31,493 nt of DNA from a virus, in IMG/VR virus record IMGVR_UViG_3300009610_000062, positions 1 to 31,493 of that record; one strand, given 5' to 3'. A program made the translations under genes and the position numbers. A model generated the notes under the pieces. That model was given only the letters and a program-made list of their open reading frames with translations, made no database searches and was not told where the DNA came from. Position 1 is the first letter of the stretch. Every line of letters starts with the position of its first letter. Of this stretch, positions 1,378-31,493 are shown piece after piece.

Positions 1378-1478
1378 GCCTCATTATCCTCCCATTCCAT
1401 ACGTGGTGGTGTATACCCTTTAGCATACCCCTTTATAGCTTCGACTAATCCATCTAGAAAGTGCTGACTAATTACCAT
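1374..1478 (-). CDS. micro-ORF, 34 aa, coupled to the next gene
   Basis: A 34-aa reading frame (starts MVISQHFLDGLVEA, ends WEDNEA) whose TGA overlaps the ATG of the 78-aa gene as ATGA. The first 20 residues form an amphipathic helix and the tail is acidic. No clear Shine-Dalgarno precedes it, so initiation may depend on readthrough from the zinc-finger gene 12 nt upstream. It is supported by the overlap and by operon continuity. It could be a leader for the next gene rather than a functional protein. Confidence 0.5.
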   Translation of the reverse strand: MVISQHFLDGLVEAIKGYAKGYTPPRMEWEDNEA

Positions 1479-1490
1479 AGTAGGCCATCA

Positions 1491-1625
1491 CTACTTAATC
1501 CACCTACTCACAGGACGCCGCTCATTCACACACCCTCGCTCATGGCATACCTTGCCGTTAACCCGCAACATGACACACTGACCACATCGCCTTACTCTCT
1601 TGACGTTCGCCGCTTTAGATACCAC
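1491..1625 (-). CDS. tiny zinc-finger protein (44 aa, GTG start)
   Basis: A 44-aa basic protein with CGQC, then about ten residues, then CHERGC, a compact set of four cysteines plus histidine that would bind one zinc. CHExGC-type knuckles recur in very small phage proteins. The flanks are Arg/Lys-rich, which would suit nucleic-acid binding (inference). The GTG start shares its G with the TAG of the upstream ORF (TAGTG), and purine-rich GGAGAGGA lies about 10 nt before it. Confidence 0.65.
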   Translation of the reverse strand: MVSKAANVKRVRRCGQCVMLRVNGKVCHERGCVNERRPVSRWIK

Positions 1626-1729
1626 TACCTTATTCCTCTCCTAATCTGTAGTGCCCTGAATCTTTGCACTCTCGCGCTAAACCTAGTACTTAACTGTATC
1701 CGTTCATATCTACCATGCACCATAATCAT
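1625..1729 (-). CDS. possible micro-ORF, 34 aa, arginine-rich
   Basis: A 34-aa reading frame (starts MIMVHGRYERIQLS) with about a quarter arginine and no acidic cluster. Its stop overlaps the GTG of the zinc-finger gene (TAGTG), and its start overlaps the TGA of a 9-aa frame (ATGA). No Shine-Dalgarno is visible. If translated, it would probably be a coupled basic peptide. It may equally be an untranslated stretch between real genes. Confidence 0.3.
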   Translation of the reverse strand: MIMVHGRYERIQLSTRFSARVQRFRALQIRRGIR

Positions 1730-1751
1730 TCTGCTATTGGGCACTCACCCA

Positions 1752-2006
1752 TCATACTAGCTGCCCTGTTCCCTTCCATATCCCTACTGCTGCCACTCTG
1801 CTACCCGTCCCTAACTCTAGTCCTAATCCTATCACCTTTCGCGGTACCTGTATACACCTGTCTTTGCTATGGTCTACCCGTTTCCTTATGCTTCGGTACT
1901 CTCCCTCTCTCACCTTGGGATTCTTCCGCTTCCATAGCACCCGCCTACTCCTGACCGTATTCGTATGCCTGCGCTGCGATTGATGGGTAACTGAGTCCTG
2001 TCTCAC
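1752..2006 (-). CDS. doubtful ORF, 84 aa, basic
   Basis: A frame starting with GTG overlaps the TGA of the 57-aa gene (GTGA) and stays open for 84 codons. The first 50 residues are strongly basic and disordered-looking (many Arg, Lys, His, Gln), and the rest is Gly-rich and hydrophobic. No motif is visible and the ribosome binding site is poor. The other two minus frames here hold only fragments of 22 aa or less, so if this interval codes on this strand, this is the likeliest frame. It could be a basic accessory protein or a chance frame. Confidence 0.35.
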   Translation of the reverse strand: MRQDSVTHQSQRRHTNTVRSRRVLWKRKNPKVREGEYRSIRKRVDHSKDRCIQVPRKVIGLGLELGTGSRVAAVGIWKGTGQLV

Positions 2007-2176
2007 CTATCTATCCCAATCCTTGCTACGTTGTACACTGTGACGAAACTCTGATGATAGTGGAATTGCAATATCCCTTCCTCACCACTGTAATCGATGG
2101 CGTAACTGTCAGCCCATGCCGTAAACGCCACGCCATTCTTGAAAACTATTGTGATACTTACCGCCTGATTAGCCAT
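2003..2176 (-). CDS. small hypothetical protein (57 aa)
   Basis: A 57-aa protein starting MANQAVSITIVFKNGVAF. The ATG is preceded by GAGGTAAGG at good spacing. The sequence alternates hydrophobic strands with turns (SITIVF, AFTAWADSY, GILQFHYH, SFVTVYNV), as expected for a small beta-sheet protein. It is the first convincing gene of the leftward operon. About 40 nt upstream of the ATG lies a strongly structured element (2220-2323) that could control it. The function is unknown. Confidence 0.7.
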   Translation of the reverse strand: MANQAVSITIVFKNGVAFTAWADSYAIDYSGEEGILQFHYHQSFVTVYNVARIGIDR

Positions 2177-2219
2177 ACCTTACCTCGCTATCCTGTAACC
2201 TGTAGCTTGTTAAGTGCTA

Positions 2220-2323
2220 CTAGCTAGGGATAAGGGTCAAAGTTACAGACTCTAGATGCCTCACTCACACGGGAGGTTTGCATCCGACTAACTGTAAGAG
2301 ACTCGCCTTGAATCCCTAGCTAG
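2220..2323. other. 104-nt multi-stem structured element
   Basis: Outer arms of 11 bp pair perfectly (2220-2230 with 2313-2323, core CTAGCTAGGGA). Nested inside are GGGTC/GACTC (2234-2238 with 2300-2304, one G-U), TTACAG/CTGTAA (2243-2248 with 2292-2297) and GATGC/GCATC (2255-2259 with 2280-2284). The inner part can pair further. The strand is not decided by the sequence. On the minus strand the element would lie in the 5' leader of the 57-aa gene. The interior does not fit a tRNA cloverleaf. A structured non-coding RNA, cis-regulator or replication structure are all possible. Confidence 0.55.
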
Positions 2324-2772
2324 CAACACTCACCCTATATCTACTATCTGCTAGCCTTATCATCATATGTTTAGAGTCGCCGCTTTGTTTGCCTATCCCT
2401 TACTCTCGCAAAGCCATTGACGATTATCATTTCGGTAAACCCTACTCTGATACTTCCGTTACCTAATCACACCCATACAGGCTACACTTAGGATTCCTAT
2501 AGCATCGGACGGCCGCACGCCTTGACGCGACTATGATATGCTTTATCGAGTAGCCTACCGGATGTAGTACTCTAATCTCGTCGTATCCTTTATCCTTATC
2601 CTTTGTCTATTACCATCCTTTATCTAATCTCATAGTCAACTTGACTACATAGGGATTATCGCACCGTCTACCCTAGCGTGCCGGATTATTATGACAACTT
2701 GAAAACTTTTTTTCTGAATCTACTCATAACTAACCGTCAAGTAGGCGGACATAACGGCACCTATCCCACGTC
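2324..2772. other. gene-free stretch with short repeats and palindromes
   Basis: No frame longer than about 20 codons on the minus strand looks coding. One plus-strand frame starts here but covers the downstream repeats and is not convincing. The stretch contains ATCCTTT repeated three times within 2580-2630, the 11-bp palindrome TAGGATTCCTA near 2489-2500, a perfect 15-bp palindrome at 2633-2647 and a run of seven T near 2707-2713. CATAAC boxes begin at 2725. It is probably a control region. Confidence 0.4.
2633..2647. promoter_or_regulatory. perfect 15-bp palindrome, possible operator
   Basis: TAGTCAA-C-TTGACTA is a perfect 7+1+7 inverted repeat in the gene-free region. Its arms contain TTGACT on both strands, resembling a -35 hexamer, but no good -10 hexamer follows at normal spacing on either side. 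A binding site for a dimeric regulator is the simplest reading (inference). Confidence 0.35.
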
Positions 2773-2885
2773 TACAACTGGACATAACACTATACTTATT
2801 GTAAAGCTATGCGTGATAGTGCGAAGATGCTACAGCTACACGACCATTAGTTGCTTTACAATAAGTAATATAGTGCGAAGTTGTA
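2773..2885. repeat. 113-nt imperfect cruciform
   Basis: Three nested helices pair across a loop of about 45 nt: TACAACT/AGTTGTA (2773-2779 with 2879-2885), CACTAT/ATAGTG (2788-2793 with 2870-2875), and a perfect 14-bp arm, 2794-2807 with 2853-2866 (ACTTATTGTAAAGC). A bulge of three bases separates the last two. The sequence ATAGTGCGAAG occurs twice as a direct repeat, near 2816 and 2870. One CATAAC box lies inside the left arm. The size is larger than a usual terminator, and an origin or recombination structure is possible. Confidence 0.6.
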
Positions 2886-2899
2886 CAGGCTTACATATT

Positions 2900-3023
2900 G
2901 TAGACATAACACTGTACGTTATGTTAATGGATATATGTTCGACACGTATGTTCTAAGTGGTAGACATAAGGGTCTCGTTATGTTAAGCGAATATAGTAGA
3001 CATAATGTAGTTAGTTATGTAAA
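2900..3023. repeat. three copies of a GTAGACATAA/TTATGT dyad
   Basis: The motif GTAGACATAA-N8/9-TTATGT followed by (T/A)AA occurs at 2900-2927, 2960-2986 and 2996-3023. The spacers differ completely while the arms and flanking bases are kept, so the arms are what is conserved. Extra half-sites (CATAAC) lie at 2725, 2750 and 2783. This pattern suits a dimeric DNA-binding protein, either as operators or as origin iterons. The irregular spacing (60 and 36 bp) and short arms rule out a CRISPR array. Confidence 0.6.
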
Positions 3024-3089
3024 GTATGGGGCGAGAGGGGAGGGGCTACGCAGCCATGACCGGTAGACGGACGTCGGAAGGTAAGGGAT

Positions 3090-3122
3090 GAGTAGGAGAG
3101 GGGTGGTGGGGGACTCCTACTC
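3090..3122 (-). terminator. 9-bp hairpin after the leftward gene trio
   Basis: GAGTAGGAG (3090-3098) pairs perfectly with CTCCTACTC (3114-3122) around a G/C-rich 15-nt loop. It lies about 50-85 nt beyond the stop of the 47-aa minus-strand gene, a natural place for termination. No T tract follows on either strand, so it may be a factor-assisted terminator or an mRNA 3'-end stabiliser. Confidence 0.35.
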
Positions 3123-3174
3123 TATACCTATCCTGGAATTGGGTTTGATATCGTTTACGATGTATATGGACTGA

Positions 3175-3318
3175 TCAGAGCTTAACCAGATCACCATTGC
3201 AGATGATCCGCAAGAACCGGAATAGAGGATAAACCGGATGCCGACTATAGCAGAGCTTACAGACAGAGCAAATCACCCGACCATCAGCCCTATAGAACTC
3301 GTTATTAATTAATGGCAT
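3175..3318 (-). CDS. tiny cysteine-cluster protein (47 aa)
   Basis: A 47-aa frame starting MPLINNEFYRADGRV. Cys17, Cys20 and Cys23 (CSVCKLC) cluster near the middle, and Cys40 is near the end, giving four possible zinc ligands. The rest is hydrophobic and basic. AGGA precedes the ATG by a short spacer, and an overlapping ATG four bases upstream opens only a 5-aa frame. It starts 16 nt after the stop of the 149-aa gene, so it is probably the last gene of that leftward trio. The function is unknown. Confidence 0.6.
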   Translation of the reverse strand: MPLINNEFYRADGRVICSVCKLCYSRHPVYPLFRFLRIICNGDLVKL

Positions 3319-3334
3319 CCATCCTAGAGTCATA

Positions 3335-9727: not shown

Positions 9728-10306
9728 ATGCCTGATAGCTTTAGTAATAGTGGTAGTAGACTAGCACAGATCGCGGCGGAAAAGACGCGAGATAGTAAGG
9801 TACTGGATGTGCTGGCGGGACTGAGCACTGGTAGGGCCGCATATAGTCCTGTACCACCATTGCCTAGACCTAATGGTAGTCAGTCACCTACAGTATCACA
9901 AGGTAAATCTGTGGCTGGGTCTTATGATAAGCGTATTGGGCCTTATGATAAGCGCCATGGAGAAAGCTCTATACAGGATTATCCACGACAGAACCATAAT
10001 CTTACACAGCAATGGGTCGAGGGCGCGGGTGGGGGAGAAAGAGGATTCAGCGAGTTTAATTCTGCGTCAGCGTCTGTAGTACCCACTGATTTTAGATCTA
10101 GTATTAACCTTGACTTACAGAGTGCTGATGATTTCTATCAGACAGTCGGTAGGTGGCCTACTCAGCTAGATAACATGATCATTGAAGCTAGACGGAATTG
10201 GATGATTAATAGAGGATATAACCCTAGTAAACAAGAGCTTATGTACGCTGTTAATCAGGGAATGTTGGGATATAGAGACTCACAGCTTGGGGGCAATAAG
10301 CTCTAA
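9728..10306 (+). CDS. hypothetical protein (192 aa)
   Basis: A 192-aa protein behind a purine-rich GAGAGAGGGAGAGAG. The N-terminal 110 residues look disordered, rich in Ser, Pro, Gly and Asn, with a short repeat (YDKRIGPYDKRHG). The C-terminal 70 residues (DDFYQTVGRWPTQLDNMIIE onward) form an ordered helical segment. The stop overlaps the start of the giant protein (TAATG), so the two are probably made together and may interact. The family is not recognised. Confidence 0.7.
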   Translation: MPDSFSNSGSRLAQIAAEKTRDSKVLDVLAGLSTGRAAYSPVPPLPRPNGSQSPTVSQGKSVAGSYDKRIGPYDKRHGESSIQDYPRQNHNLTQQWVEGAGGGERGFSEFNSASASVVPTDFRSSINLDLQSADDFYQTVGRWPTQLDNMIIEARRNWMINRGYNPSKQELMYAVNQGMLGYRDSQLGGNKL

Positions 10307-13300
10307 TGGTACAAGACCCGCTAGCACAGTCAGATGTTAACTTCTTTAGTGGTGGGTTGGTGCTGGACTTACAGCGATTCCAGCAGACCCCTGGAGAAGA
10401 ACGTAGAGAGACACCTAGTTTAATACAGATTATCAATGAGAGTAAGGTGTTGCCTAGTGTGTTGGGATCGCCCGAGGTTAGCGGGGTTGTATCTGCACCG
10501 GAAGCACCATATGTGGATGTAAGTAGTATATTTGATGAGGGTGTAGAGACTTACATTGAATCCTTATCGTACAGGGATCAGGATGCTTTTTTCAGTCTGT
10601 TTGATACAACTACTAGAACGAATACTATTGTCCCAGAATTGAGCTTGAAAACCGGTCAGAGTGGTAGCTTATTTGGACTAGTGAAGTCTATTACTGGTGA
10701 TCCTTTTGGGATTATTGGTGAGGGATTTAAGATACTAGATGTAGCTAGTCAGGCTACGGAACAGGCGCAGGGATTCCTATTCTCATACCTTACGCAGGGT
10801 TGGGGTAATGACCTCAGTATGGGTGAGCGTTGGGATGCTGGTAAGCTGTATTATGAGGGTGTATTTAATGGCTTAGATGAGATGAAAACGGCCTGGAGTT
10901 TGGCTGCTAGGGATGATAAGGGGTTTGATGAGTACCTGAAAGCCCAACAAGGTGGTTGGGTTGATATGGGTTTGAAGATGATACTTGATCCCTTATGGCT
11001 AGTCGGTGGTATGCCGCTGGTTCCTGGCGCTATTAGGATGACTAAGATATCAAAGTTGGAAGGGGTAGCGTCGTTCCTTCAAACAGGTATTAGGGCGGAC
11101 TCTATTGGAGGGGTATTAACTGGATTACCGGTAGCAGGTAAGTTGTTTAGTAAAGCTGGTACTACTCTAGATGCTATGCCGATAGTGGGTAGTGTTTTAC
11201 GAGGTACTATCGGTGCCTTTGGTATGCCTATTGAGTCAAAGGCTGCACGCGAGACTCTACAGGAAGTAGCCGTAGCTCTTAATGTGTCGAAAAAACTAAC
11301 GGATAGTGTAGAACTAAGTAGAGCGCTAAAAGAGGTTGGTAATCCTGGGTGGATTAAGAGTCTATTCAGTATACAACCACAGCGGGCAAGCGAAGATATA
11401 GCCGGACAAGTGGACCGGTTAATGACGATAGCTGCTAAGAATGTAGAATCACCGGCAGACCTACGTATCTTAATGACGGATTGGAAGAACGGTGTAAACC
11501 TACCTAATGCGCTTAGTAATCAGCGTGTAGGTAAGATGTTCCAGATCATTAATAGGATGGAGTTTGAGAAGTTTGACTCATTGAACCCCAAGAGCTTCTA
11601 TGCTGGTGATGATTGGCGTTTGAAGTTTATTGATGAGGTTAGACACGGTGCAGGTAGAGCTACTGGTACGCCTGGAAATACACTACTGGATATCAGTAAG
11701 GGTGTGTATGGAGCCGAGAATATCGGGGCGTTGAATCGTATGTTAGGGCCTATTAAATGGGGATTGGGAGTCACGTTGTTGAACCGACCCGCCTATACGG
11801 TGCTTAATATCATGAACAACACCTTTACTACGATGTTTGACGCCATCGATAGTTTCGACAATGCACCGTATGAAAGCCTTGGTGTTATCAGTAGTAGATT
11901 TGGTGTGTTTAGAGGTAGGCATAATGACTTTATGACTGCCAAATTTGATGAGGGGTGGAAAGAAACTCGTGATGGTGTGGCTCTTGGACGTGACTGGATG
12001 GAGAGGGAATTCGGTCTAGTCCGAGATAAGAAGGGTGCGCCTAAACATCTATGGGATAACGCTGCTTTTAACTTCGGGGTAAGGACTGCATCATTCTTCG
12101 ATAGTGCGGCAAGAAGAACAAGTGCGGAGTTTGCTATGCTTAGGGCTGATCATTATACAGCTAAAGCTGGTGCAGTATTCCCTAATATAAAAGATGAATT
12201 TACATCTATTATAGATAAAGATTACCATATGCCTACACTTGTGAAGAATAGAGATAAGATTTCACGAGGTGAGGTCTTTGGTGAATTTGCAGCCGTTAAG
12301 ATTCGTAATGAGATGTTTTCTGGTATAGATGATACTAATACTAGGCATGCTATGCAGGAGACACTAGAGACACATCTAGGTGGTCAGATGAGGGCTATAG
12401 AGGATGAGATAGTATCCCTTATACAGGCTAATGACTTGGAAGGTGCAAGGAATGTGCTGGCTAAGTCTAAGGCTGAAATGAAGATGTATGCACAGCGGGC
12501 GAATCGTATCAGTAACGTCGGAACATCTTCCCCGCCGGTTAAGTATGAGAGTATATTCGATGCTCATGTAATGGACTATGCGCAGCAGGCGGATGAGTTT
12601 ACCCATTGGACTACACAGATGGGTCTGATGATGCGTGCTAGTGGCGCTATTGATCCAATGGGTGTTGGATTGGTAATGAACGGTATGACGTACAAGTGGG
12701 GTGCATACAGTGAGATGCGGCAGCAGTTGGTAGATGATTTTACTGCCACACTAGCTGAGGGTAATATTAATGCTAGTAGGTTAGCTCTCGATGAGCTAGA
12801 GAATCAGACTAAGGTATTCCATGACCGTATCAAAGCGGACATTGATAGTATAGTGAATCGGTTAGCTAAGGTGGACATTACTCAAGCGAGGGCTTTCAAT
12901 GATGCATCAAGACGGTATCTTGACAGCCTTAGAGCGCCTGAGGATGCATTTAGATCGGCGTTACGTAGAACTTACCATCCCAGACGGGTTGGAGAAGAAG
13001 AAGCGTTTAATGCGATTAAAGACGCAATGGACACAAGAGCTACTGAGGTTAGAGGACTATTCGATCAGAACATCGAGGACTTTAGAGTCGGAGGATTCGC
13101 ACCCGATCCAGTCCTGAGTGAAGCCCCGATGATGAGTGATAGATTTAATACATATGAGAGGGTGTGGGAAAAGTACGCCAATCATATGGAAGCGAATCTA
13201 GGTAGACTGGCCGGTGAAGCGGATAACTTGAGGTCTACAACAGACCTTGAATCTCTCGTTAAATGGATTGATGAAGAAGTAGCCCCTCGTATGATAGATT

Positions 13301-15969
13301 ATCAATTCGCTAATGAGCGGTTTGTCAGGCATATGACCGACTTTAGTATGCTGGATTATACCCATCAGTACGGGTTTGAGAAGTACACACAGATGGTGTT
13401 TCCGTATGAGTTTTGGCCGACTAGGACAGCATGGCATTGGGCACAGAGGGCATGGGCTAAGCCTGGGGCAGTTAACGGTCTATATAATATTCTCGAATTC
13501 CAGCAGGAATGGCAGGCTCAGGTTGATGAGCGGTATATGAATCAGATTAGGGAACAGCTTAAGGATGTTAATCTGTCTCCTGAGGTAAGACTACAGTTGG
13601 AAGCTGAGCTTGAGAATGGTAGTGGATTAGCTGCCCGTATGAGGAAGCTAACTATACCCGTACCGTTTCTACAGGCAGGGTTAAACGCCATCGGTATATC
13701 CGGTGACTACAACACCGCGCCTATCCCGTTTATTGGCGGTAGGGGTATTGAGGTGGCATTCGACCCTTATGCTGCTATGTTTCCGCTGGCTGATTGGAGC
13801 AGGGATTTTGAGGACTATACCCCTAGGGCTGATAACTGGCTTGGTAGGCAGTGGCAGGGATTGAAGAATACTGGTCTATCATTGAATCCATTTGTCAGTA
13901 CAGTAGGACAGCTAACCGGCATACTACCTGAGGGTGAAGAGGCCTTTAGTTGGCTCCGTAATGGTGGGCCACCGGCGTTTATAGCATTAGGACAGTCAGC
14001 GGCAGGTAGAGCCTTTTATCGTTGGGCGAGCTTAGGTGATGAAGGCCCGATGGCTAAGTTAGAAGAGGCGGTAGGTGTACCGATTAGAGAGTTCTTCTTT
14101 GAGAACGGGTATGGGCCAGAAGGTCTACTCTCGTATTTGGCAGCGGAAATCACAGGGGCAGACCCTAGAGATAAAAAGAACTTTGAGCTATTCGGTACGT
14201 CTCGCTTGCTTGCTTCACTTGCGGCGGAAGATACGCGGTTATTGGCCCTCGAACAAGAGCGTAAGAACCGGAAGATGGCTGGTGAAAACGCCAGTATGGT
14301 TGACGCAGATATCAACGCTAGACGTGAGGGTATCTCGATGGAATACGTCAAGGCGTATCATGATCAGTCAGGCCCGTTGTGGGAGAAAGCACGCAAAGGT
14401 TATGCGGATGTTGAGGGGCTGAGGAATCTTACCTCTTATTTCATGGGTATGGGTGGTATTAACGTATGGCAAAGAGGGGAAGTGATTCAAGAGGGGTTGG
14501 ACTTCCTGAATAATGCTGTTATGCAGGCAGGGAATGATGCTGAGAGGCAGGCGTTCTTTGATCTGTTTCCGGAATATACACCTAAGAGGATTCAGGATAC
14601 GGTGCTGAATGACCAGGTTGGTGCGCGTGAGATAGCACGACAATCTCTATGGTTCCATAATAGTGAGTTAATCCAAAAGACTTACGAGGGTAGGATTACT
14701 GAGCTTAATGGACAGATAGAGGCTATAGACCAGCAGATTGCAGGGATTGAGTCGGCTGGATTAAATCTACGGGTGAACAGAGAAGCGCGGTCTGGTCTAT
14801 TTGACACTAAGGATGCACTACGGTCGAAGCTAGACGACTTGTATGATCAGCGTAATAAGGACTATGACCAGTTGGATGCCTTGTATGGTAAGCCGATCAA
14901 TAGTCTGAGTAAGAATCCGTGGGAACGGGCGTTGGATAACTACGCTGAGGAATGGTATGCAACGTACAGGATTGAAGATGATACGGCCCGTAAAGCTGCA
15001 CAAGACAAATTCCTTGCTAGTTTCGCTCCTAATACTCAAGGTAATACTCATCTTGATTGGCTTAGTCTAGGTGTACAAGCGGCAGCAGTGAGGGAGCAGA
15101 CACGTCGTAGTTCGTTCGGTATAGAGAATGAGGCCGCAAGGAAGTTAAGAGAGAAAATGGGTATGGATATCGAGGCGCTAACCAATGAGGCTGCGGCCAG
15201 GGTTAATGCGCGTGATATTCGTGAACACTTGGGCCTTAAGGAATCTGGGCCACCATCTGCTAGCGTAGCTGAGTACCGTATGGCTGTAGGTCTATTCCAA
15301 CAGTATAAAGCATTGGAGTTGCTAGGATTAAGTAAGGAAGAGGAACGGAAACAGAAGAAAGAATTCTGGGATAGTAACCCGCTGTTGGAACGATACTACG
15401 GTACTGAGTCTTACTTTGGGAGTATTCCAGATGCTATATATGGGTCACTACAGCGTTGGAATGAGATATTTGATGGGGCACCGGCGGAGGAAGGGGATGC
15501 GAGGTCGGCATACTTCAAGGCGTTGAATAAGGAGATAGAACAGTTAAGGGCTGTATTGGAGCCAGAAGGTCTAGTTAAGCCGGAAGATCCTAATAGTGTA
15601 AGACTAGGGCAGCTATGGGATGAGTACTTCTCACTGCCAGAAAAGAGTCAGGCACGTCGGGACTTTATGACGGCTAACAAGGAAGAGATCGATAGACTGA
15701 ATAATGTCCTAGGTAATAAGCCTATGAGTGAGAGTCAGTCGTTTAAGGATGTGAGTAGAGAGGGACAGATATGGGATCATTACTACTCACTTCCATCTGG
15801 TGATGCTAGGACGGCTTATCTATTAATGGTACAGGGTGAGCTTAATGGTATCAGGGCACGACTAGGTAAAGAGCCTATTAATAATGTCGGGTTTATCTAT
15901 CGTGACCCACGTATGAGCGAGAGTGCTCCGGTTACGTCGAGAGACTTAATAGGAGCGCTACCTCAATGA
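10306..15969 (+). CDS. giant virion protein (1887 aa), probable ejection/internal protein
   Basis: The largest gene in the window. The protein is mostly helical with long charged coiled coils. Several hydrophobic stretches lie around residues 220-300 (LDPLWLVGGMPLVPGAIR; GGVLTGLPVAGKLF) and 480-510. An aromatic segment near 1030-1055 reads MVFPYEFWPTRTAWHW. The C-terminal 170 residues hold three degenerate repeats of 45-50 aa with a W-(N/D)-x-(I/Y)-(F/Y) start, then A-R and a Glu/Leu-Arg helix, at about 1714-1755, 1767-1806 and 1818-1858. No protease, lysozyme or polymerase motif was found. It is placed between portal and scaffold rather than after the capsid, so a tape measure is less likely than a DNA-ejection or internal core protein (inference). 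Confidence 0.75.
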   Translation: MVQDPLAQSDVNFFSGGLVLDLQRFQQTPGEERRETPSLIQIINESKVLPSVLGSPEVSGVVSAPEAPYVDVSSIFDEGVETYIESLSYRDQDAFFSLFDTTTRTNTIVPELSLKTGQSGSLFGLVKSITGDPFGIIGEGFKILDVASQATEQAQGFLFSYLTQGWGNDLSMGERWDAGKLYYEGVFNGLDEMKTAWSLAARDDKGFDEYLKAQQGGWVDMGLKMILDPLWLVGGMPLVPGAIRMTKISKLEGVASFLQTGIRADSIGGVLTGLPVAGKLFSKAGTTLDAMPIVGSVLRGTIGAFGMPIESKAARETLQEVAVALNVSKKLTDSVELSRALKEVGNPGWIKSLFSIQPQRASEDIAGQVDRLMTIAAKNVESPADLRILMTDWKNGVNLPNALSNQRVGKMFQIINRMEFEKFDSLNPKSFYAGDDWRLKFIDEVRHGAGRATGTPGNTLLDISKGVYGAENIGALNRMLGPIKWGLGVTLLNRPAYTVLNIMNNTFTTMFDAIDSFDNAPYESLGVISSRFGVFRGRHNDFMTAKFDEGWKETRDGVALGRDWMEREFGLVRDKKGAPKHLWDNAAFNFGVRTASFFDSAARRTSAEFAMLRADHYTAKAGAVFPNIKDEFTSIIDKDYHMPTLVKNRDKISRGEVFGEFAAVKIRNEMFSGIDDTNTRHAMQETLETHLGGQMRAIEDEIVSLIQANDLEGARNVLAKSKAEMKMYAQRANRISNVGTSSPPVKYESIFDAHVMDYAQQADEFTHWTTQMGLMMRASGAIDPMGVGLVMNGMTYKWGAYSEMRQQLVDDFTATLAEGNINASRLALDELENQTKVFHDRIKADIDSIVNRLAKVDITQARAFNDASRRYLDSLRAPEDAFRSALRRTYHPRRVGEEEAFNAIKDAMDTRATEVRGLFDQNIEDFRVGGFAPDPVLSEAPMMSDRFNTYERVWEKYANHMEANLGRLAGEADNLRSTTDLESLVKWIDEEVAPRMIDYQFANERFVRHMTDFSMLDYTHQYGFEKYTQMVFPYEFWPTRTAWHWAQRAWAKPGAVNGLYNILEFQQEWQAQVDERYMNQIREQLKDVNLSPEVRLQLEAELENGSGLAARMRKLTIPVPFLQAGLNAIGISGDYNTAPIPFIGGRGIEVAFDPYAAMFPLADWSRDFEDYTPRADNWLGRQWQGLKNTGLSLNPFVSTVGQLTGILPEGEEAFSWLRNGGPPAFIALGQSAAGRAFYRWASLGDEGPMAKLEEAVGVPIREFFFENGYGPEGLLSYLAAEITGADPRDKKNFELFGTSRLLASLAAEDTRLLALEQERKNRKMAGENASMVDADINARREGISMEYVKAYHDQSGPLWEKARKGYADVEGLRNLTSYFMGMGGINVWQRGEVIQEGLDFLNNAVMQAGNDAERQAFFDLFPEYTPKRIQDTVLNDQVGAREIARQSLWFHNSELIQKTYEGRITELNGQIEAIDQQIAGIESAGLNLRVNREARSGLFDTKDALRSKLDDLYDQRNKDYDQLDALYGKPINSLSKNPWERALDNYAEEWYATYRIEDDTARKAAQDKFLASFAPNTQGNTHLDWLSLGVQAAAVREQTRRSSFGIENEAARKLREKMGMDIEALTNEAAARVNARDIREHLGLKESGPPSASVAEYRMAVGLFQQYKALELLGLSKEEERKQKKEFWDSNPLLERYYGTESYFGSIPDAIYGSLQRWNEIFDGAPAEEGDARSAYFKALNKEIEQLRAVLEPEGLVKPEDPNSVRLGQLWDEYFSLPEKSQARRDFMTANKEEIDRLNNVLGNKPMSESQSFKDVSREGQIWDHYYSLPSGDARTAYLLMVQGELNGIRARLGKEPINNVGFIYRDPRMSESAPVTSRDLIGALPQ

Positions 15970-18008: not shown

Positions 18009-18956
18009 ATGAACAACTTCCAGAATACTCTGACGATTAACACGCTTGATAGGCTGCTTGCATTCTTTCAAGCTACGTCGAGTAGACCGTCTATTGGTGA
18101 CACCCTTTATCAGGGTACTAATATGCCTCAGGTAGTGTTTGTATCATCTGATAACGGTAGTAATAGTAACGATGGTCGTGATCCTAGGACGCCACTGGCT
18201 ACGCTTGAGGAAGCCTTGGATCATGTGCAGGCTAACAGGGGTGATGTTATCTTCATCATGCCTGGACACACTGAGGCGTGGACTGCCGATGTAGTTATCG
18301 ACGTTGCCGGTATCACTATCATCGGTCTTGGTCAGGGTGTTGATAGGCCGACATTTACCATTGGTGATGCCGCTGGTGAATCGTTGGATATTGCTGCGGC
18401 TAGTGTGATCCTTGAGAACCTTGTGTTTGTTTGTGGAGTTGATCAGCAGACTTGGATGATTGGTATCCGAGCTACAGACTGTTCTATTCGTAACTGTGAA
18501 TTCAGAGAAGGTACCGCACTACAGCCATTGATTATGCTGGATATTGGTGCCGGTGCTGCCGCTAATGCTGCGGATAGAGCTTCGGTTATCAACTGTGTAT
18601 TCAAGTCACCTACAGCCGGTGATGGTGACTCGGCTATCAAGCTGAGTGCAATTAGTAATGCGGTAAGGATTAGTGGTTGTAACATCTGGGGTGATTACGA
18701 TGATGCCTGTATCCACAACCCCATTGGTTTCGTGTGTACAGACCTTGAGATTAGTGACTGTATCTTGTCTAATGTACTGACAGGTCAGCACGCTATTGAG
18801 TTGGTTAGTGCATGTACGGGTAATCTGATTAGGAATCTGTATCACAGTGACTTGACTCAGGCTACGGCTTCTGACCCTGGTAGTTGCTTTAGTTACGAGT
18901 GCTATCACGATGATGTGGTTGATACATCAGCTATTATCTCACCGGCTGTAACGTAA
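18009..18956 (+). CDS. beta-helix virion protein
   Basis: A 315-aa protein with GAGGAAGG before the ATG. After a 45-residue head comes DNGSNSNDGRDPRTPLATLE, a start typical of phage right-handed parallel beta-helix proteins, then coils of the pattern V-x-I-x-x-(C/N/G) (ITIIGLGQG, VILENLVFVCG, CSIRNCEF, VRISGCNIWG, LEISDCILS). Such folds occur in tailspikes that cut sugars and in capsid-surface proteins. No catalytic Asp/Glu pair stands out. Because it lies directly after the capsid gene, a capsid decoration or vertex protein is as likely as a tailspike. Confidence 0.7.
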   Translation: MNNFQNTLTINTLDRLLAFFQATSSRPSIGDTLYQGTNMPQVVFVSSDNGSNSNDGRDPRTPLATLEEALDHVQANRGDVIFIMPGHTEAWTADVVIDVAGITIIGLGQGVDRPTFTIGDAAGESLDIAAASVILENLVFVCGVDQQTWMIGIRATDCSIRNCEFREGTALQPLIMLDIGAGAAANAADRASVINCVFKSPTAGDGDSAIKLSAISNAVRISGCNIWGDYDDACIHNPIGFVCTDLEISDCILSNVLTGQHAIELVSACTGNLIRNLYHSDLTQATASDPGSCFSYECYHDDVVDTSAIISPAVT

Positions 18957-21112: not shown

Positions 21113-21622
21113 GTGAATGATGAGCTTGAGAAGATTAAAGAGGTATTCAACGCTAAGAATAATGCTAAAGAGGCAGCGTTGATTGCAGTTGGTGCAGCTA
21201 AGATTGAGGATCAAGAGAAGTATTTATCAGTCAAGAGTATTACTAAGGAAGCCTGGCGGGCTATGTCTGAAGGTGAACGCAAGGCTGGTATGGATGCTTG
21301 GTTCTCTGAGGATGAGAGCCGGTATAGCCCGTATTGGGATGAATGGAAAGCCAAAGGTATTGAAGGTGACGAGGGTAGACTACAGGCTGAATTCCAACAG
21401 CTATGCGATAAGTATGTAGCTGATCATCCTGATGAGTTTACTAACAATATCAGGGCTATGGATATAAAGCAGCTTGTTACATCTCTTAGCGTGTTTAGGG
21501 CCGCTGGATTTGAGACTGAACAGTGGATCATCGAAGTTTGGCTTAAGCACCACTTTGAACCACAGGTTATTGGTGGTCCGATTAAGGCTAGGATTCGGTT
21601 CCCGAATGGTGGTGTAGTGTAA
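21113..21622 (+). CDS. hypothetical protein (169 aa)
   Basis: A 169-aa, largely helical and acidic protein that starts with GTG 5 nt after the previous stop. It is rich in Trp and Tyr (WRAMSEGER, AWFSEDESRYSPYWDEWKAKG), and its C-terminus turns beta (IKARIRFPNGGVV). Helical proteins at this place are sometimes tail-assembly or chaperone proteins, but there is no slippery site or second overlapping frame like the tape-measure chaperones of long-tailed phages. The stop overlaps the next ATG (TAATG). The function is unknown. Confidence 0.65.
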   Translation: MNDELEKIKEVFNAKNNAKEAALIAVGAAKIEDQEKYLSVKSITKEAWRAMSEGERKAGMDAWFSEDESRYSPYWDEWKAKGIEGDEGRLQAEFQQLCDKYVADHPDEFTNNIRAMDIKQLVTSLSVFRAAGFETEQWIIEVWLKHHFEPQVIGGPIKARIRFPNGGVV

Positions 21623-22233
21623 TGCTTCTCTCAAGGGAAGAGACTAAAAGAATAGTTGGTCAATTTTCTCCTGAGTTTTGGGAGAGGATGAAGAATAGAT
21701 TTTGGATTGAGCAGATCGAAGCGGCTATTGCCGATGGCAAGATGCCGAAGTCTGCGCTTATTCGGTACTGCCTTGAGCACGGCATACCGATGGTTGGTGG
21801 TAGTGCTGTTGGGTTTTATATTACCAACGCCGAAGCCATATCAATGCTTACAGATCATGGTGTAGGTATTGATGCCGGTACTGCCGCTGTAATTAATATC
21901 TATGATAGCACGGTGCCTACTGATGCTGATACGGCATTGGGGGCTCAGGTACTCCTGGCTCAGTTGACGTGTAGTGCTACAGCGTTTACATCGGTGGCTG
22001 ATGATACGCCTGGAGCTATAGCTACATTTGCCTCTATTACGGCTGATGCTTCGGCTAATGCATCGGGTACAGCCACGTTCTTCCGTATTCTTACTCAGAA
22101 TGCTGGAACAGTAACAGATCAAGGTACGGTTGGTACGTCTAGTGCCGATCTTATTATGAACACAGTGGCGTTTACCGCTGGATCTAATGTAGCTATCTCT
22201 GCCGCGACGATTCTACTTCCTGAGGGGCCGTAG
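21622..22233 (+). CDS. virion protein with helical head and beta C-terminal domain (203 aa)
   Basis: A 203-aa two-part protein. Residues 1-60 are helical and charged (SREETKRIVGQF, FWERMKNRFWIEQIEAAIAD). Residues 80-203 form a Thr/Ala-rich beta domain (LLAQLTCSATAF, ASANASGTATFFRILTQ, SADLIMNTVAFTAGSNVAIS) of a type often found in small phage virion proteins. The helical part could anchor to neighbours while the beta part is surface exposed (inference). It is coupled to the preceding gene by TAATG. Confidence 0.65.
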   Translation: MLLSREETKRIVGQFSPEFWERMKNRFWIEQIEAAIADGKMPKSALIRYCLEHGIPMVGGSAVGFYITNAEAISMLTDHGVGIDAGTAAVINIYDSTVPTDADTALGAQVLLAQLTCSATAFTSVADDTPGAIATFASITADASANASGTATFFRILTQNAGTVTDQGTVGTSSADLIMNTVAFTAGSNVAISAATILLPEGP

Positions 22234-25377: not shown

Positions 25378-28300
25378 ATGGTGAGTGAAGCTAGACGTCC
25401 CTGGTTTAAGCTAGGTGGTCAGTTACTATACCTGTCTGATGGTGGGAATCAGGGGAGAGGGAAGCCTATTAGTGCTGACCCTGCGTCTGACTTTAACGCT
25501 GGTATCAAGACAGGGCCGGTTGACTATGATCAGAGATTGCATACCGAGTTTATTGCTATTGATGATTATAGTGGTGGCCAGGGTTTTGACCGAGTATCTA
25601 GCAGGGAAGATATAGGCTTATATTGGAAGTCTACTAAGGGAGTAGATACTACCAGAAGCAAGCATATCATGGCTCCACCGTATTTCCAGAAGGTATTCGA
25701 GCAGGCGCATGACTATGCATTAGAGGGTAGTCAGGCTAGAAGTCCTATCCCTCATGGCAGGGCGCTGCTTAGGTACAATGATAAGCAGATATTCGGTTGG
25801 CCTGGGTTATTCCTTACTACTGATGATGGGTTGGAGTTTACACTGATACCTGAGGGTACAGGGACTCCTACAAAGCTCATAGGTAGTATGGTCGGTGTTG
25901 TAGGTGGGGCCACTAGACATTATCTTAAATTTCTGCATGGATCGACTGGCCCTAGTCTTAAGGCGTTCTATACAACGAATGGTACTAGCTTTACAGCCGA
26001 GAGTACAGTGGCCTTGTGGGATGTGATGTTTGCACAAGGGTATTTTTGGGCGCTTGATGAGGATGGTATTAGTCTGTCTACTACCTTCCCTACTACGGGT
26101 GGATTCAATGGATTACCGTCAGGGTATGGACAGTTTATTGGCCCTGGTAAGACGCCGACTGGTCGTGATGGTGTTTACTTCATCAAGGGCGGTAGGATGT
26201 TCTATGCGGTTAAGGCTGAGGACTTTGTACGTACTGAGTGGGATGAAACAGGGCAGATATGGGTTAGTACATACCTTAGTCCAGACGATCTTGAGATCAT
26301 TAAAGAGGCAATGGTAGCTCCTGGGTTTAATATTGTAGGAGCGGTCTACTACAACACTACTATTGTATTGACTAACGGATATAGTGCGTTGTCATATCAG
26401 GTGTCTGGTAGTCAGGAAGTGCCGAGGGATATCGGGTTTCAAAACTTCCGTGCTGCTACTCCTGAGATTCGTGGCGGTATGATTCGTGCTATGACCGCCG
26501 ACTCTAGCAAGGTATACGTAGCTGTACAGAATGATAGTGACACCTATATCTTGTCATGGAATGAGCGCGGTTGGAACTTGATGAAGAAGATTTCTAACTT
26601 CGTCGTTCACTACATGGATATCGGGCAGTATCCAGTTAACTCATGGCCTACTACTAAGAGAAGTTTGTATGTGGTAGGACAGGGCAATCAGGCTATATCA
26701 CTTAATGATATTAGTGTGATTAGACGTCCGAGTAGTAATGGGCCTGATACAGGGTGGACTGGCGACTTTGATGAGGTTGAAGAAGAAGTATCAGATGATG
26801 ATGGTAGTTATATCACTATCAATACGTCTGGTACTAGGGAAAGTTTTAGCTGCGTAGAGGCTAATTCGGGGAATGGGCAGATACTTAGCCCTGGTAGATA
26901 TAGTGAGTATCCGTTTGGGTTTGAATACAGGCCGGTAAAGTTAATCGTTCATGCTATCGCTAAAGAGGTTGGTGGAGATGCTACGATCGACTTGTTTATT
27001 AGGACGGCTGATACGTCTGGTAACGAGGGATTGGTAGACTCTACGGCGCATACTTTGACTACATCATATGTAGAGTATCAGTCTGAATTCTTGATTGAGC
27101 CAGATGAGTCTAAGCCCTGGATATATTCGGGATATAGCTGGTACATAGGTGTGTTGAATAACTCTAACATTGAGGTTAGGGTAAGTCAGATGTGGGTTGA
27201 AGTAGTGTATAGTCGAACGGCTATTCAGGTATGGGAAGCTAAGCTGCCGGTGCTAAGCCTGAACCCGACGTTAGGGGTCGATGAAGTTGCCTATGATTGG
27301 GACTTGTATACAGGGTGGATGGATGGTGGCTTCAAGGACTTAAGAGGGGCGTTGTACGAGTTCCTGGCTAGTGGTGACTTCTCCGAAACTGAATATGTAG
27401 ATGTTTACTATATGCTGGATAATGACGAGACAGAGATTCTACTAGGGCGTATTGACTCCGATGGTGAGGACTTACATTGGGGCACAGTTAGCCGAGAAGG
27501 TGTAGAGTTTAGGTCGTTCAGACTCAGGTTCGTTGGTGTGAACGGGCATCCAGACCTTGAATACCTTGATAGAGAAGTAAGTGATGTAAGTATTCCTGAG
27601 GGTAGTACAGTTGATACCCCTGAGGAAGATTGGTTTTATATGGTTCCGTTTAATGAGACGGCAAAAAAGAAGAAGATTGCTCAGTCATTTACACCGACGG
27701 TTGATACTACGATTAAGAGGGTAGCTTTTAGGCTAGGACAGATTTGGAATCTTGACGAATCTAACCCTGATAACGTCCCATCTTATACAGGTAAGACCAT
27801 TACGTGTAGAGTGATTGGTGACTTTGGTGGTATACCCGAAGGTCTTGAATATAGCGAGTTGGTTAGTATAGATGCTAGTAAGCTGGATGGTGCGTTTGAA
27901 GTATTAGATGGGTATGGGCTGGATGGTCATGGAATACATCAGGCGCATAGTCTGGTAGTATTCGAGTTTGAGGATGGTGGATTCGAGGTGCAGGCAGGGG
28001 ACACTATCTGGATTGTAATAGCTGGTGGTGGGGATGTATCTACATCTGTCTGGTATGGTGCTGTAGCCTATATAAGCTCACTTGATGATTGGTACGATGG
28101 CGGTAAAGCCATGTACTATGATGAGGATGAAAGTGAGTGGATCAATGTACCGACTAATGAAGAGATACATGATCTTATTGCCGCTCATTGGACTCTGCAA
28201 GAAGGTACCACAAATAATAGGTTAGATAGTACACACCATAATAATGATCTAGTGCCGTCTGCTAGTATAGCTGCTGTTGCGGCGATACAGGGAAATGGTG

Positions 28301-29301
28301 CCGACTTTGAGGAAGGTGACAGCCGGTATCTTAGTAAGGCATTGATTGATGGGTGGGATTACCAGGGTGAATGGACGATTGGATTTTGGGCTAGATTAGA
28401 GACTATTACCGGAAACGATAAAGCTATGTTTGGTTTTGGTAATTTTGGCTCAGACCAAGTTATTAGAACTAGGTATTCTCCCTCTCAAGGGTATTGGAGA
28501 GTAGCACTAACATTAGCGGATGCATCGTCTGTTAACTTCAATGAGACTAACTACGGTGTGGGTGTGATAGGGGAGGATGTGTATGTTGTCACTAGACATA
28601 GGGTAACAGGCGTAAATTCAGGATCTATTGGTATTGCTGTTTGGAAAGCTGGCACCCCTGGCACTGAAATAACTCAATCGTATTCGGGTACTACTATCCC
28701 TTCATCGAATGGGCCATTTATTGTAGGCGCAGATAATGGTGGTACTGGAGAGTTCTTTGATGGTTTAGGTGATGAGTTTACTATTATAAATGGTGTGTTA
28801 AGTGATGCAGCCATAGCAAGAATTGTGAATTCTGGCTCAGGTGTTACTTTTGAAGAACTAAGAAATATTGTTTACAGTGACCTTGCTGCGGGTAATGCTG
28901 ACCTTATGTTTAAGGTAGGATTCGACCGGAAGAGTGCATCGGATATGGAGGGGTTTGTTGTGTCATATGACAAGCGTCCACCCTTCCGCGCACAGTGGCA
29001 GCTACCTATTGATATCGGCGGCATGATTGATGATGGTGTTGAAGTAGAAGGTGAGAAGGCTAGCGTACAAGGTGTGATGAATTACCTTGAGAAGTGCTGG
29101 AATAGTAAGCCGATGCTTGAGTTTGAAATACCTGATAAGGCAGATGGTAATGGGGATTATACTGTTGTAAGGAAATCGCTGGTTAAACTTTCGGCTATGC
29201 CACTGGGGTTTGAGGTTGACACCAAGGCAGGTGCTAGGATGGATACAACGATACAGTTGTTGGAACTTACTCACCAACTAAGTCCGGATGAGGATCAGTA
29301 G
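25378..29301 (+). CDS. large multidomain tail protein with LamG/lectin-like domain (1307 aa)
   Basis: Residues 1-470 contain repeated short strands with W/F/Y-G turns (DDGLEFTLIPEG; DGVYFIKGGRMFYAV; SSKVYVAVQNDSDTYILSW) that resemble a beta-propeller. Residues 480-740 are further beta domains. Residues 766-925 (AQSFTPTVDTTIKRVAFRLG, then GDTIWIVIAGG) look like a beta-sandwich anchor domain. Residues 934-1155 match a LamG/concanavalin-like fold (WTLQEG, WTIGFWARLE, FDGLGDEFTIINGVLSDAAI), which often binds sugars. Residues 1156-1307 are a mixed C-terminal domain. It probably forms the tail tip or nozzle and contacts the host surface (inference). Confidence 0.7.
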   Translation: MVSEARRPWFKLGGQLLYLSDGGNQGRGKPISADPASDFNAGIKTGPVDYDQRLHTEFIAIDDYSGGQGFDRVSSREDIGLYWKSTKGVDTTRSKHIMAPPYFQKVFEQAHDYALEGSQARSPIPHGRALLRYNDKQIFGWPGLFLTTDDGLEFTLIPEGTGTPTKLIGSMVGVVGGATRHYLKFLHGSTGPSLKAFYTTNGTSFTAESTVALWDVMFAQGYFWALDEDGISLSTTFPTTGGFNGLPSGYGQFIGPGKTPTGRDGVYFIKGGRMFYAVKAEDFVRTEWDETGQIWVSTYLSPDDLEIIKEAMVAPGFNIVGAVYYNTTIVLTNGYSALSYQVSGSQEVPRDIGFQNFRAATPEIRGGMIRAMTADSSKVYVAVQNDSDTYILSWNERGWNLMKKISNFVVHYMDIGQYPVNSWPTTKRSLYVVGQGNQAISLNDISVIRRPSSNGPDTGWTGDFDEVEEEVSDDDGSYITINTSGTRESFSCVEANSGNGQILSPGRYSEYPFGFEYRPVKLIVHAIAKEVGGDATIDLFIRTADTSGNEGLVDSTAHTLTTSYVEYQSEFLIEPDESKPWIYSGYSWYIGVLNNSNIEVRVSQMWVEVVYSRTAIQVWEAKLPVLSLNPTLGVDEVAYDWDLYTGWMDGGFKDLRGALYEFLASGDFSETEYVDVYYMLDNDETEILLGRIDSDGEDLHWGTVSREGVEFRSFRLRFVGVNGHPDLEYLDREVSDVSIPEGSTVDTPEEDWFYMVPFNETAKKKKIAQSFTPTVDTTIKRVAFRLGQIWNLDESNPDNVPSYTGKTITCRVIGDFGGIPEGLEYSELVSIDASKLDGAFEVLDGYGLDGHGIHQAHSLVVFEFEDGGFEVQAGDTIWIVIAGGGDVSTSVWYGAVAYISSLDDWYDGGKAMYYDEDESEWINVPTNEEIHDLIAAHWTLQEGTTNNRLDSTHHNNDLVPSASIAAVAAIQGNGADFEEGDSRYLSKALIDGWDYQGEWTIGFWARLETITGNDKAMFGFGNFGSDQVIRTRYSPSQGYWRVALTLADASSVNFNETNYGVGVIGEDVYVVTRHRVTGVNSGSIGIAVWKAGTPGTEITQSYSGTTIPSSNGPFIVGADNGGTGEFFDGLGDEFTIINGVLSDAAIARIVNSGSGVTFEELRNIVYSDLAAGNADLMFKVGFDRKSASDMEGFVVSYDKRPPFRAQWQLPIDIGGMIDDGVEVEGEKASVQGVMNYLEKCWNSKPMLEFEIPDKADGNGDYTVVRKSLVKLSAMPLGFEVDTKAGARMDTTIQLLELTHQLSPDEDQ

Positions 29302-29320: not shown

Positions 29321-29908
29321 ATGGCCAGACCTTTTACCACTACTGAGGGCAGAGGTAAACCACAGGGGAGGGAGCAATCTCCTACGGTTGTTCGTGATCC
29401 TAAGATTGGTAGAGGTAGACTTCCTGGGTTGGAATTCACTAGGATTCCAGGGGTTAGAAGAGTACGAGCTTTTCCCCAAGCACCTAGGGAAGTACTCAAG
29501 CTACCTACTCCAGAAGAGGATTGGGAACAACAGTATCAGATCTGGTATAGTACATGGCGTGGAACTAGACCGGAGTATATAGTATTTGACTACCTTAGTA
29601 GAAGGAGGAAATATAAGCATGGTGTGGACTTTGCCTTTCAGAGTAGTTTCCTTGGTGGAAGGCAGAGGCTGGGTGGTAGTGTAGTAGATTTTGAGGTGTA
29701 TAAGGATCGAGTATATATCAGAGTACAGGGTGAGAGGTTCCACTTAGGCCCCGAGAAGATAGCACAAGATACCGTGCAGGCTACAAGTATTATGAGGTTG
29801 GGTTGGCCTGTCGTAGATGTATGGGCTGAACAAGTTATTGTTGCCCCACGAACTGTAATCGAGGCCGCATTAAGAGGTGTAACGCTTAGAGCAGGAGTAA
29901 ACCCGTAA
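29321..29908 (+). CDS. Vsr/PD-(D/E)XK-like nuclease-fold protein (195 aa)
   Basis: After a disordered basic N-terminus (1-60), the core reads EYIVFDYLSRRR, VDFAFQSSFLGGR, GGSVVDFEVYKDRVYIRVQG, ERFH, then a helix (KIAQDTVQATSIMRLG) and WPVVDVWAEQV. This is the order of a small PD-(D/E)XK fold of the Vsr/DUF559 sort: a strand with Asp, a strand ending V-(D/Q)-G, an aromatic-His, and a helix. The position that is usually acidic before VQG is Arg here (IRVQG), so cleavage activity is uncertain. It lies after the tail genes. A structural or degenerate nuclease role is possible. Confidence 0.5.
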   Translation: MARPFTTTEGRGKPQGREQSPTVVRDPKIGRGRLPGLEFTRIPGVRRVRAFPQAPREVLKLPTPEEDWEQQYQIWYSTWRGTRPEYIVFDYLSRRRKYKHGVDFAFQSSFLGGRQRLGGSVVDFEVYKDRVYIRVQGERFHLGPEKIAQDTVQATSIMRLGWPVVDVWAEQVIVAPRTVIEAALRGVTLRAGVNP

Positions 29909-29910
29909 TC

Positions 29911-30294
29911 ATGCTGGAAGATGTGCTTAATGTACCTTGGGAAAAAATGACCGGTATGCTGGCTTTCTTTTTACTATTAGCTGGTACCGCTGGTAAGTGG
30001 ATTCCGTTTCTAAACAAGCTAGTAGAAGCATGGCTTGATTGGATAGGCAGTGCCTTTACACGTAGTATGAGGGAGCAGGTAACTGAGCTAAGTAACAAGG
30101 TAGATACGCACATCAACGATCCCGACGCTCATCAGAATTTGTTTAGAGATTTGTTGGATGGCGTACTAAAGCTAGTATCAATTAAGGAGAAAGAAATTGC
30201 TGCAATGGATAAACGGCATGAAGCAACGGCTACTAGAGTCGATCAAATGGCTGAACGCGAAAGCTCAAGGGATGGCGCTGATCGGATTGGTTAA
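29911..30294 (+). CDS. membrane protein with coiled coil, holin-like candidate (127 aa)
   Basis: A 127-aa protein with one hydrophobic segment (MTGMLAFFLLLAGTAG, residues 13-28), an amphipathic aromatic helix (FLNKLVEAWLDWIGSAF) and a long charged helix to the end (about 55-120, TELSNKVDTHINDPD, then DGVLKLVSIKEKEIAAMDK). A single span plus a cytoplasmic coiled coil is seen in some phage holins and membrane adaptors. The start lies 2 nt after the previous stop and the gene end overlaps the next gene by 98 nt. A role in lysis is inferred from neighbours. Confidence 0.55.
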   Translation: MLEDVLNVPWEKMTGMLAFFLLLAGTAGKWIPFLNKLVEAWLDWIGSAFTRSMREQVTELSNKVDTHINDPDAHQNLFRDLLDGVLKLVSIKEKEIAAMDKRHEATATRVDQMAERESSRDGADRIG

Positions 30295-30634
30295 TACAGT
30301 AGCGTTGACGTTGGTTGTTGTGCTGGTGGTATTGCCTGAGGGCGGGATTGATACCACGCCAACGTCAGATGATGGGCCGGTGTTTGAAGTGCCATTACAG
30401 CCTGGGTTAACCGATCCTATCGTGACGTGTGAGATGGCAGCTAAGAACGATGCAGTAGGGGTACTACCGACCGATGGCGGGTTAAGATATCTGGCTCAGT
30501 ATGGTGCCAGTACTATCGAATGGGTCAGAAATCCTAACGTGAATAACAGCTTAGGATTTGTTGATGGAGTGGATCAGCCGATTAGTGAGGAGGTTAAGGA
30601 GTGTCTTATCGAAAATGCTTTGCTTCCTCAGTAG
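30197..30634 (+). CDS. membrane-anchored protein with extracytoplasmic domain (145 aa, TTG start)
   Basis: The TTG at 30197 has a textbook AAGGAG 7 nt upstream, so the gene starts inside the previous one (98-nt overlap in another frame). Later ATGs at 30218 and 30269 are alternatives. A basic amphipathic N-terminus (1-25) leads into a membrane span (GMALIGLVNTVALTLVVVLV, 25-44), then an external acidic, proline-rich linker and a small domain with two Cys (TCEMAAKND, KECLIEN). The topology is N-in, C-out. Spanin-like or surface-exposed accessory roles are possible. No family is recognised. Confidence 0.6.
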   Translation: MLQWINGMKQRLLESIKWLNAKAQGMALIGLVNTVALTLVVVLVVLPEGGIDTTPTSDDGPVFEVPLQPGLTDPIVTCEMAAKNDAVGVLPTDGGLRYLAQYGASTIEWVRNPNVNNSLGFVDGVDQPISEEVKECLIENALLPQ

Positions 30635-31493
30635 TAGCGGTAGTATCGATTCTTACTCTGGCTGTTGCGTTCCTTTATGGTGGTGGGGATAAGGCATCGG
30701 CACATCATCTAGGGTATGTATGGCCTAGGTCGTGGATACCTGAGTCATATTATACGCAGTCACTTGAGATGAGAGACAGCGGAGTATGGAGGTGGTGGTA
30801 TGAGCAGCAATGTGGGTCAGCTAATAGTAACATATATCTTGCTGTTCGTGATAGCATGGTGGACTTTACTGGACGGTATCAAGTGGGGAATCAGGAGGTC
30901 AGCAAGGGTACTATCAACAGTCAAGGCCAGATGGCTATGTGCGGATCTATATTTGTGGCGTCTTGTGGAGCGGAAGCCGCTGCATGTGTTGGTAGCGATA
31001 GCCCTGGGTATCCTAGGAATTGTGATGCTAAATATTCAGCGGCAGTAATAGCAGCATACTTCTCACTTGAAAGTCGTAAGTCAGTCGTTAAACACGAGAA
31101 GTTTCATTGTAGTAGTCAACGTGCTGAGGACTACGATGATGATCGGACTGATGGTACTAACTATCTAAGGTGTATTGTTAGTCTAAGTATCATGGGGTGT
31201 GGCCCTAACCATCCTAATGACTTTAGTGAGCTGGATGATGAGGTCTGGAAACAGGTACACTTCCCGCCTGTACTAGACAGATGTATTTATACACAGACTA
31301 AGCCGTGTGTAGGTATGTTTGGTACTACAGTGTATTGGGAAAGGGTGACGGATACTAGGGGTAGAGTGCTGTCATTTGCCTATGATGATGTTGAGGATGG
31401 ATACGGTAACGGGTATTGGGTGTATAGTATGACCAAGAAAGCGGGCGATGTATATTCGCCTTATAATAGCTCTGGTATTGTGGAAGTTGAGTA
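30601..31493 (+). CDS. secreted Cys-rich protein with HExxH motif, 3' end off the window
   Basis: A GTG at 30601, preceded by GAGGAGG with 7-nt spacing, opens a frame of 297 codons that is still open at the window end. A signal peptide is clear: SYRKC, a hydrophobic core (VVAVVSILTLAVAFLYGG) and a cleavage-like KASA-HH near residue 34. The mature part has ten or more cysteines, as in exported disulfide-bonded proteins. HEKFH (165-169) is an HExxH zinc site, and SIMG (196-199) follows at a distance compatible with a metzincin-type Met-turn. The third zinc ligand is not clear (Glu176 or Asp177 are candidates). Probably a secreted metallopeptidase or a relative. The role in infection is unknown. 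Confidence 0.7.
   Translation, partial: MSYRKCFASSVVAVVSILTLAVAFLYGGGDKASAHHLGYVWPRSWIPESYYTQSLEMRDSGVWRWWYEQQCGSANSNIYLAVRDSMVDFTGRYQVGNQEVSKGTINSQGQMAMCGSIFVASCGAEAAACVGSDSPGYPRNCDAKYSAAVIAAYFSLESRKSVVKHEKFHCSSQRAEDYDDDRTDGTNYLRCIVSLSIMGCGPNHPNDFSELDDEVWKQVHFPPVLDRCIYTQTKPCVGMFGTTVYWERVTDTRGRVLSFAYDDVEDGYGNGYWVYSMTKKAGDVYSPYNSSGIVEVE
30800..31048 (+). CDS. nested two-span membrane ORF (82 aa)
   Basis: An 82-aa frame lying wholly inside the secreted-protein gene in the +1 frame relative to it. The ATG has GGAGG 7 nt upstream. The product has two hydrophobic spans (GQLIVTYILLFVIAWWTLL, 6-24; HVLVAIALGILGIVMLNI, 62-79) joined by a basic segment (IRRSARVLSTVKARW), the layout of a small holin with both ends outside. 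If real, it is a fully nested gene. The strong start signal and holin-like topology favour it, and the overlapping long frame counts against it. Confidence 0.45.
   Translation: MSSNVGQLIVTYILLFVIAWWTLLDGIKWGIRRSARVLSTVKARWLCADLYLWRLVERKPLHVLVAIALGILGIVMLNIQRQ

Follow-up and report, generated by a model that had tools for sequence, protein, structure and literature searches.

A putative exported HExxH protein and a nested membrane-protein reading frame at the end of a phage contig

Genes at the end of the contig

The window, by which we mean the whole stretch of DNA analysed (31,493 nucleotides, positions 1 to 31,493 of the IMG/VR virus record IMGVR_UViG_3300009610_000062), ends within a plus-strand gene for an HExxH protein (30601–31493), the last gene on the record. 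Its frame starts with GTG at 30601 and runs for 297 codons, open to the contig end, with the 3′ part missing. The sequence AGGAGG (30588–30593, plus strand) lies 7 nt ahead of the start and is recognizable as its Shine–Dalgarno sequence. In terms of gene order, the gene for a large tail protein (25378–29301) is followed by a nuclease-like gene at 29321 and then by the genes starting at 29911, 30197, and 30601, the last three of which overlap one another and form a compact block. The protein encoded at 29911–30294 on the plus strand has 127 amino acids, with an N-terminal transmembrane (TM) segment and a long hydrophilic tail, and is holin-like by layout only. The plus-strand gene at 30197–30634 (TTG start, with AGGAG) overlaps both of its neighbours, and its 145-amino-acid product combines one strong TM segment (the 15-mer from residue 32) with a long further domain and has no family match. 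These two small membrane-protein genes directly precede the HExxH gene, which the first-pass annotation had accurately placed beside membrane proteins. The plus-strand gene between the tail and lysis-like genes (29321–29908) encodes a protein of the DUF559/MTES_1575 (VSR-like) nuclease type, with a Pfam match (E = 3e-4) below the cut-off.

The phage context of the gene is well supported. The capsid protein matched SU10_MCP (E = 1.5e-22), the terminase had matches to a PHROG and in 73 phage records, and a virion structural protein matched phrog_3758 (E = 1.7e-32), all in agreement with the earlier description of the gene as lying at the end of a phage structural cluster.

A second open reading frame (ORF), not mentioned in the first-pass annotation, is nested in the +1 frame within the HExxH gene (30800–31048, plus strand). 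It encodes 82 amino acids with two predicted TM segments joined by a positively charged loop, and its ATG is preceded at 7 nt by a GGAGG Shine–Dalgarno sequence (30788–30792, plus strand). With its small size and two TM segments it is holin-like (holins being small proteins with 1–4 TM segments encoded beside a lysis enzyme), although no family match was found; the loop charge suggests that both ends of the protein would lie outside. Among the 19 same-strand embedded ATG ORFs of at least 40 codons in the window, this ORF alone combines two TM segments with a strong ribosome site. When the outer gene was recoded with synonymous codons, an ORF of at least 60 codons that likewise encoded two TM segments and had a strong ribosome site appeared in 0.20% of 20,000 trials based on phage codon usage and in 0.19% of 50,000 trials in which the gene's own codons were shuffled. 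The number of two-TM nested ORFs with a strong ribosome site expected in the whole window was 0.0033. The nested ORF is, in these terms, beyond chance. The codon score of the +1 frame also climbs to approximately the level of the outer frame across the ORF and drops beyond it. No homologue of the nested ORF was found, and the RNA at its start formed no structure beyond chance.

Predicted export signal and HExxH motif

The N-terminus of the HExxH protein is signal-peptide-like. On the basis of hydropathy and motif, residues 1–34 (30601–30702, plus strand) form a predicted signal peptide, with the n-region MSYRK, a hydrophobic core at residues 11–25, and a predicted cleavage site after ASA (ASA|HH, 34/35), as expected of a Sec substrate. 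The core has a mean Kyte–Doolittle value of 2.91, and no other 15-mer encoded by the 22 scored plus-strand genes is as hydrophobic. The protein contains 11 cysteines, 10 of them past the signal peptide, whereas most of the other scored genes encode 0–3. Export of the protein is well supported by these sequence features, from which we infer that it is in fact exported.

The HExxH motif itself, HEKFH, occupies residues 165–169 (31093–31107, plus strand), with His165 and His169 as putative zinc ligands and Glu166 as the putative catalytic residue. It is followed by EDY at residues 176–178 (31126–31134, plus strand), where Glu176 or Asp177 is a candidate third ligand, and by the Met-turn-like SIMGCG at residues 196–201 (31186–31203, plus strand), in which Met198 sits 29 residues past His169. 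Everything that the first-pass annotation had stated about the sequence of 30601–31493 was correct, from the strong Shine–Dalgarno sequence, the clear signal peptide, and the many cysteines to the exact position of HEKFH, the SIMG motif about 30 residues further on, and the loss of HExxHxxG after the second His, where Ser172 stands in place of the expected Gly.

HExxH on its own is weak evidence, because it occurred in 0.26% of the shuffles of the protein and in 1.1% of 2,230 gene-like background ORFs, and because a published survey counted 151,223 occurrences where chance predicts 80,000, an approximately twofold excess (PMC3650047). A second HExxH was found within the window in an antisense ORF. 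These frequencies, together with the implication of the survey that chance accounts for about half of the known cases (PMC3650047), favour the main rival explanation, in which the HExxH arose by chance and the exported protein is a non-enzymatic, disulfide-rich component of the envelope or surface, acting, for example, in superinfection exclusion or as a regulator or partner of the adjacent membrane proteins. The missing metzincin Gly and third ligand and the lack of any profile match point in the same direction. However, a Met-turn-like SIM and an EDY in fitting places, combined with export, are jointly improbable under this explanation, which we regard as a serious contender with a minority chance of being correct. 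Specifically, the combination of two hydrophobic or small residues, HExxH, and [STC][IVL]M 15–65 residues later was found in none of the 2,230 ORFs, and a similar pattern was found in none of 20,000 shuffles; the pattern was chosen after the sequence had been seen and is therefore suggestive rather than a test. Likewise, two acidic residues and a Tyr at the positions of the M64/CLCA motif DEY have a probability of approximately 0.001 from composition at fixed positions, in a comparison that, like the other motif comparisons for this protein, was made after the sequence had been seen.

Comparison with zincin families and search for relatives

The first-pass annotation called the protein metzincin-like, and this holds at the level of the motifs (HExxH and the Met motif). 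At the level of the family it fails: the metzincin consensus HExxHxxGxxH/D is replaced by HEKFHCSSQRA, with Ser172 for the Gly and Ala175 for the third ligand, and no profile recognized the protein. Metzincins such as the matrixins (M10) and the phage-derived Listeria Mtz (PMC8235301) share with it a signal peptide, an HExxH, and, by sequence only, a Met motif about 30 residues further on, but they differ in having the Gly and the third His or Asp ligand. With an M10 profile of nine Chloroflexota M10-like sequences, the hhalign probability was 0.1%, and hmmsearch ranked shuffled sequences above the protein itself.

The M64 and CLCA families carry the motifs HExxHxxxxLxDEY and HExxHxxxGxxDEY, an acid of which has been proposed as the extra ligand (PMC3650047). 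The HExxH-x6-E-D-Y of the present protein shares with them an acidic pair and a Tyr at motif positions 12–14, and members of these families are likewise secreted, with cysteines in the domain. In contrast to these families, its acids are in the order E-D rather than D-E, and no Leu or Gly precedes them. In a search with an M64 (PF09471) profile built from loci collected here, the protein ranked far down among 500 shuffles, and the hhalign alignment with this profile fell on another region of the protein; CLCA (PF08434) gave no Pfam match at E values up to 10. A third group, the CLCA_X zincin-like family of phages and plasmids (HExxHxxxD; PMC3650047), resembles the protein in being phage-borne and containing HExxH, but Gln173 occupies the position of the consensus Asp, and many CLCA_X members exceed 500 amino acids. 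A protein encoded on the viral contig L111 (317–400) contains HEMGHGHGLKDESY and the Met-turn-like CIMSAMSYGG; it is a zincin with an intact HExxHxxGxxD and has no detectable kinship to the HExxH protein of the window.

No match to the protein was obtained in Pfam, NCBIfam, or the PDB at E values up to 10 or in PHROGs at E values up to 1, and in the 297 residues present, which lack the C-terminus, no Pfam or PHROG match to a peptidoglycan hydrolase or wall-binding domain was detected. AlphaFold predictions made without an alignment, for the mature protein and for the putative domain, had pLDDT values of 32–34, too low for the models to be of use. Because the consensus motifs are not kept, the profiles score no better than shuffles, and the database searches were empty, the protein is not assignable to any of these families, even though it may work like the M64/CLCA or metzincin peptidases. 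Judged from the motifs, a zincin using an acidic third ligand of the kind proposed for CLCA/M64 (here Glu176 or Asp177) would be a better fit than a metzincin. A zincin fold is, in our estimate, somewhat favoured, and the zincin interpretation of the first-pass annotation is plausible.

Relatives of the protein were sought widely. None was found by exact 8-mer scans of IMG/VR and 84,980 genomes, by tblastn against phages and plasmids, or with two DNA motif patterns run over IMG/VR (for the second pattern, among the matches listed). Six-frame searches at high sensitivity, covering 67 phage records that contain similar terminase or capsid genes and approximately 1,550 genomes of Chloroflexota, Actinomycetota, Acidimicrobiia, and Bacillota, also found none. 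Weak matches (E = 0.0008–0.01 per genome) were traced to other proteins or to frames containing stops, and none of the matches aligned an HExxH. The window as a whole had no close kin in the collections searched. When its genes were used as baits, the terminase identified sequences of at most 32% identity and the capsid protein sequences of approximately 25%; neither the tail protein (25378) nor the nuclease-like protein (29321) retrieved any loci, and the other genes of the window matched none of the retrieved loci.

Proposed role in lysis

The membrane proteins, the exported putative hydrolase, and the nested holin-like frame, taken together, suggest a lysis cassette. Our main reading, to which we assign a probability of roughly 40%, is that the HExxH protein is an exported zincin-like peptidase that helps to open the host envelope. 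Under this reading, the gene would lie in the late (lysis) part of a tailed-phage genome, and its product would be made late in infection, cross the cytoplasmic membrane via its own signal peptide (Sec), and fold outside the cell with disulfides. The exported domain would most likely take the fold of a zincin-type metallopeptidase, in which His165 and His169 would bind zinc, Glu166 would activate water, Glu176 or Asp177 would replace the third ligand, and Met198 would form the base under the metal. The enzyme would then cleave peptide bonds of the host envelope (in cell-wall peptides, wall proteins, or a surface layer) and so aid the small membrane proteins whose genes lie next to its own (29911 and 30197) or within it (30800) in opening the cell. 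Of the sites of action raised in the first-pass annotation, the nested frame points to the host envelope, through a role in lysis, rather than to competing phages or the environment.

Nested genes are known from lysis cassettes (hol187 in ply187, and Rz/Rz1) and offer a parallel at the level of the genes only, in that a small out-of-frame membrane-protein frame lies wholly inside an envelope-acting gene; the outer gene here differs in that its product, which has a signal peptide of its own, is a putative metallopeptidase rather than a recognized endolysin or spanin. By analogy, the nearest functional counterpart of the protein would be the Listeria metzincin Mtz, which is of phage origin, is secreted, and raises the sensitivity of cells to phage lysis (PMC8235301). 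The two also share their association with a phage and an envelope-protein gene as neighbour.

The same analogy leads to an alternative that we consider unlikely, in which the protein is an exported zincin that does not serve lysis but trims a membrane-bound partner or is released onto host surface proteins, as in the case of Listeria Mtz/Tim. Mtz cuts a lipoprotein encoded next to it (PMC8235301), and the product of 30197, directly upstream, has behind its TM segment a long domain that might serve as substrate or inhibitor. However, this product matches no family, and the nested holin-like ORF at 30800 favours lysis. A pseudo-zincin that retained the fold, lost catalysis, and now acts as a binding protein is improbable: inactive zincins are known (PMC3650047) and the glycine and third His/Asp are missing, but none of His165, Glu166, and His169 has been lost, and the M64/CLCA offset is occupied by acidic residues.

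Returning to the lysis peptidase, a bolder version would place it in a new family of phage lysis enzymes, in which a signal-peptide zincin with an acidic third ligand and a holin-like protein nested in the +1 frame constitute one dual-coded unit of envelope protease and membrane permeabiliser. We regard this version as doubtful. To our knowledge, the peptide-cutting lysis enzymes of phages come mostly from a few known families. If correct, the combination of a self-exported zincin and a holin-like frame nested in its gene would represent a further way to open bacterial cells, as well as a dual-coded gene pair of a kind overlooked by routine annotation. Should no more than the export and the nested frame be borne out, the locus would still usefully illustrate how a membrane protein can lie hidden in the late region of a phage.

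Elsewhere in the window, two adjacent plus-strand genes (21113–22233) encode proteins that share 56–58% identity, along part of each protein, with gp23 and gp24 of the cluster N mycobacteriophages, a resemblance suggestive of an actinobacterial host. Mycobacterium phage Charlie carries the relatives of these genes shortly ahead of its endolysin and holin, an order that counts in favour of the lysis reading. The window is mosaic in this respect, since the terminase and capsid protein are only 23–32% identical to anything found. Two further plus-strand genes encode a 1,887-residue protein with no Pfam or PHROG match (10306–15969) and a 315-amino-acid protein with 11 cysteines and a weak match to a baseplate wedge (phrog_13163, 2e-5; 18009–18956). 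Approximately 1.9 kb without convincing genes (1400–3330) separates the minus-strand gene block from the plus-strand block; repeated TAGACATAA-like elements occur within it, near 2773–3023, as does a perfect 15-nt inverted repeat (2793–2807/2853–2867).
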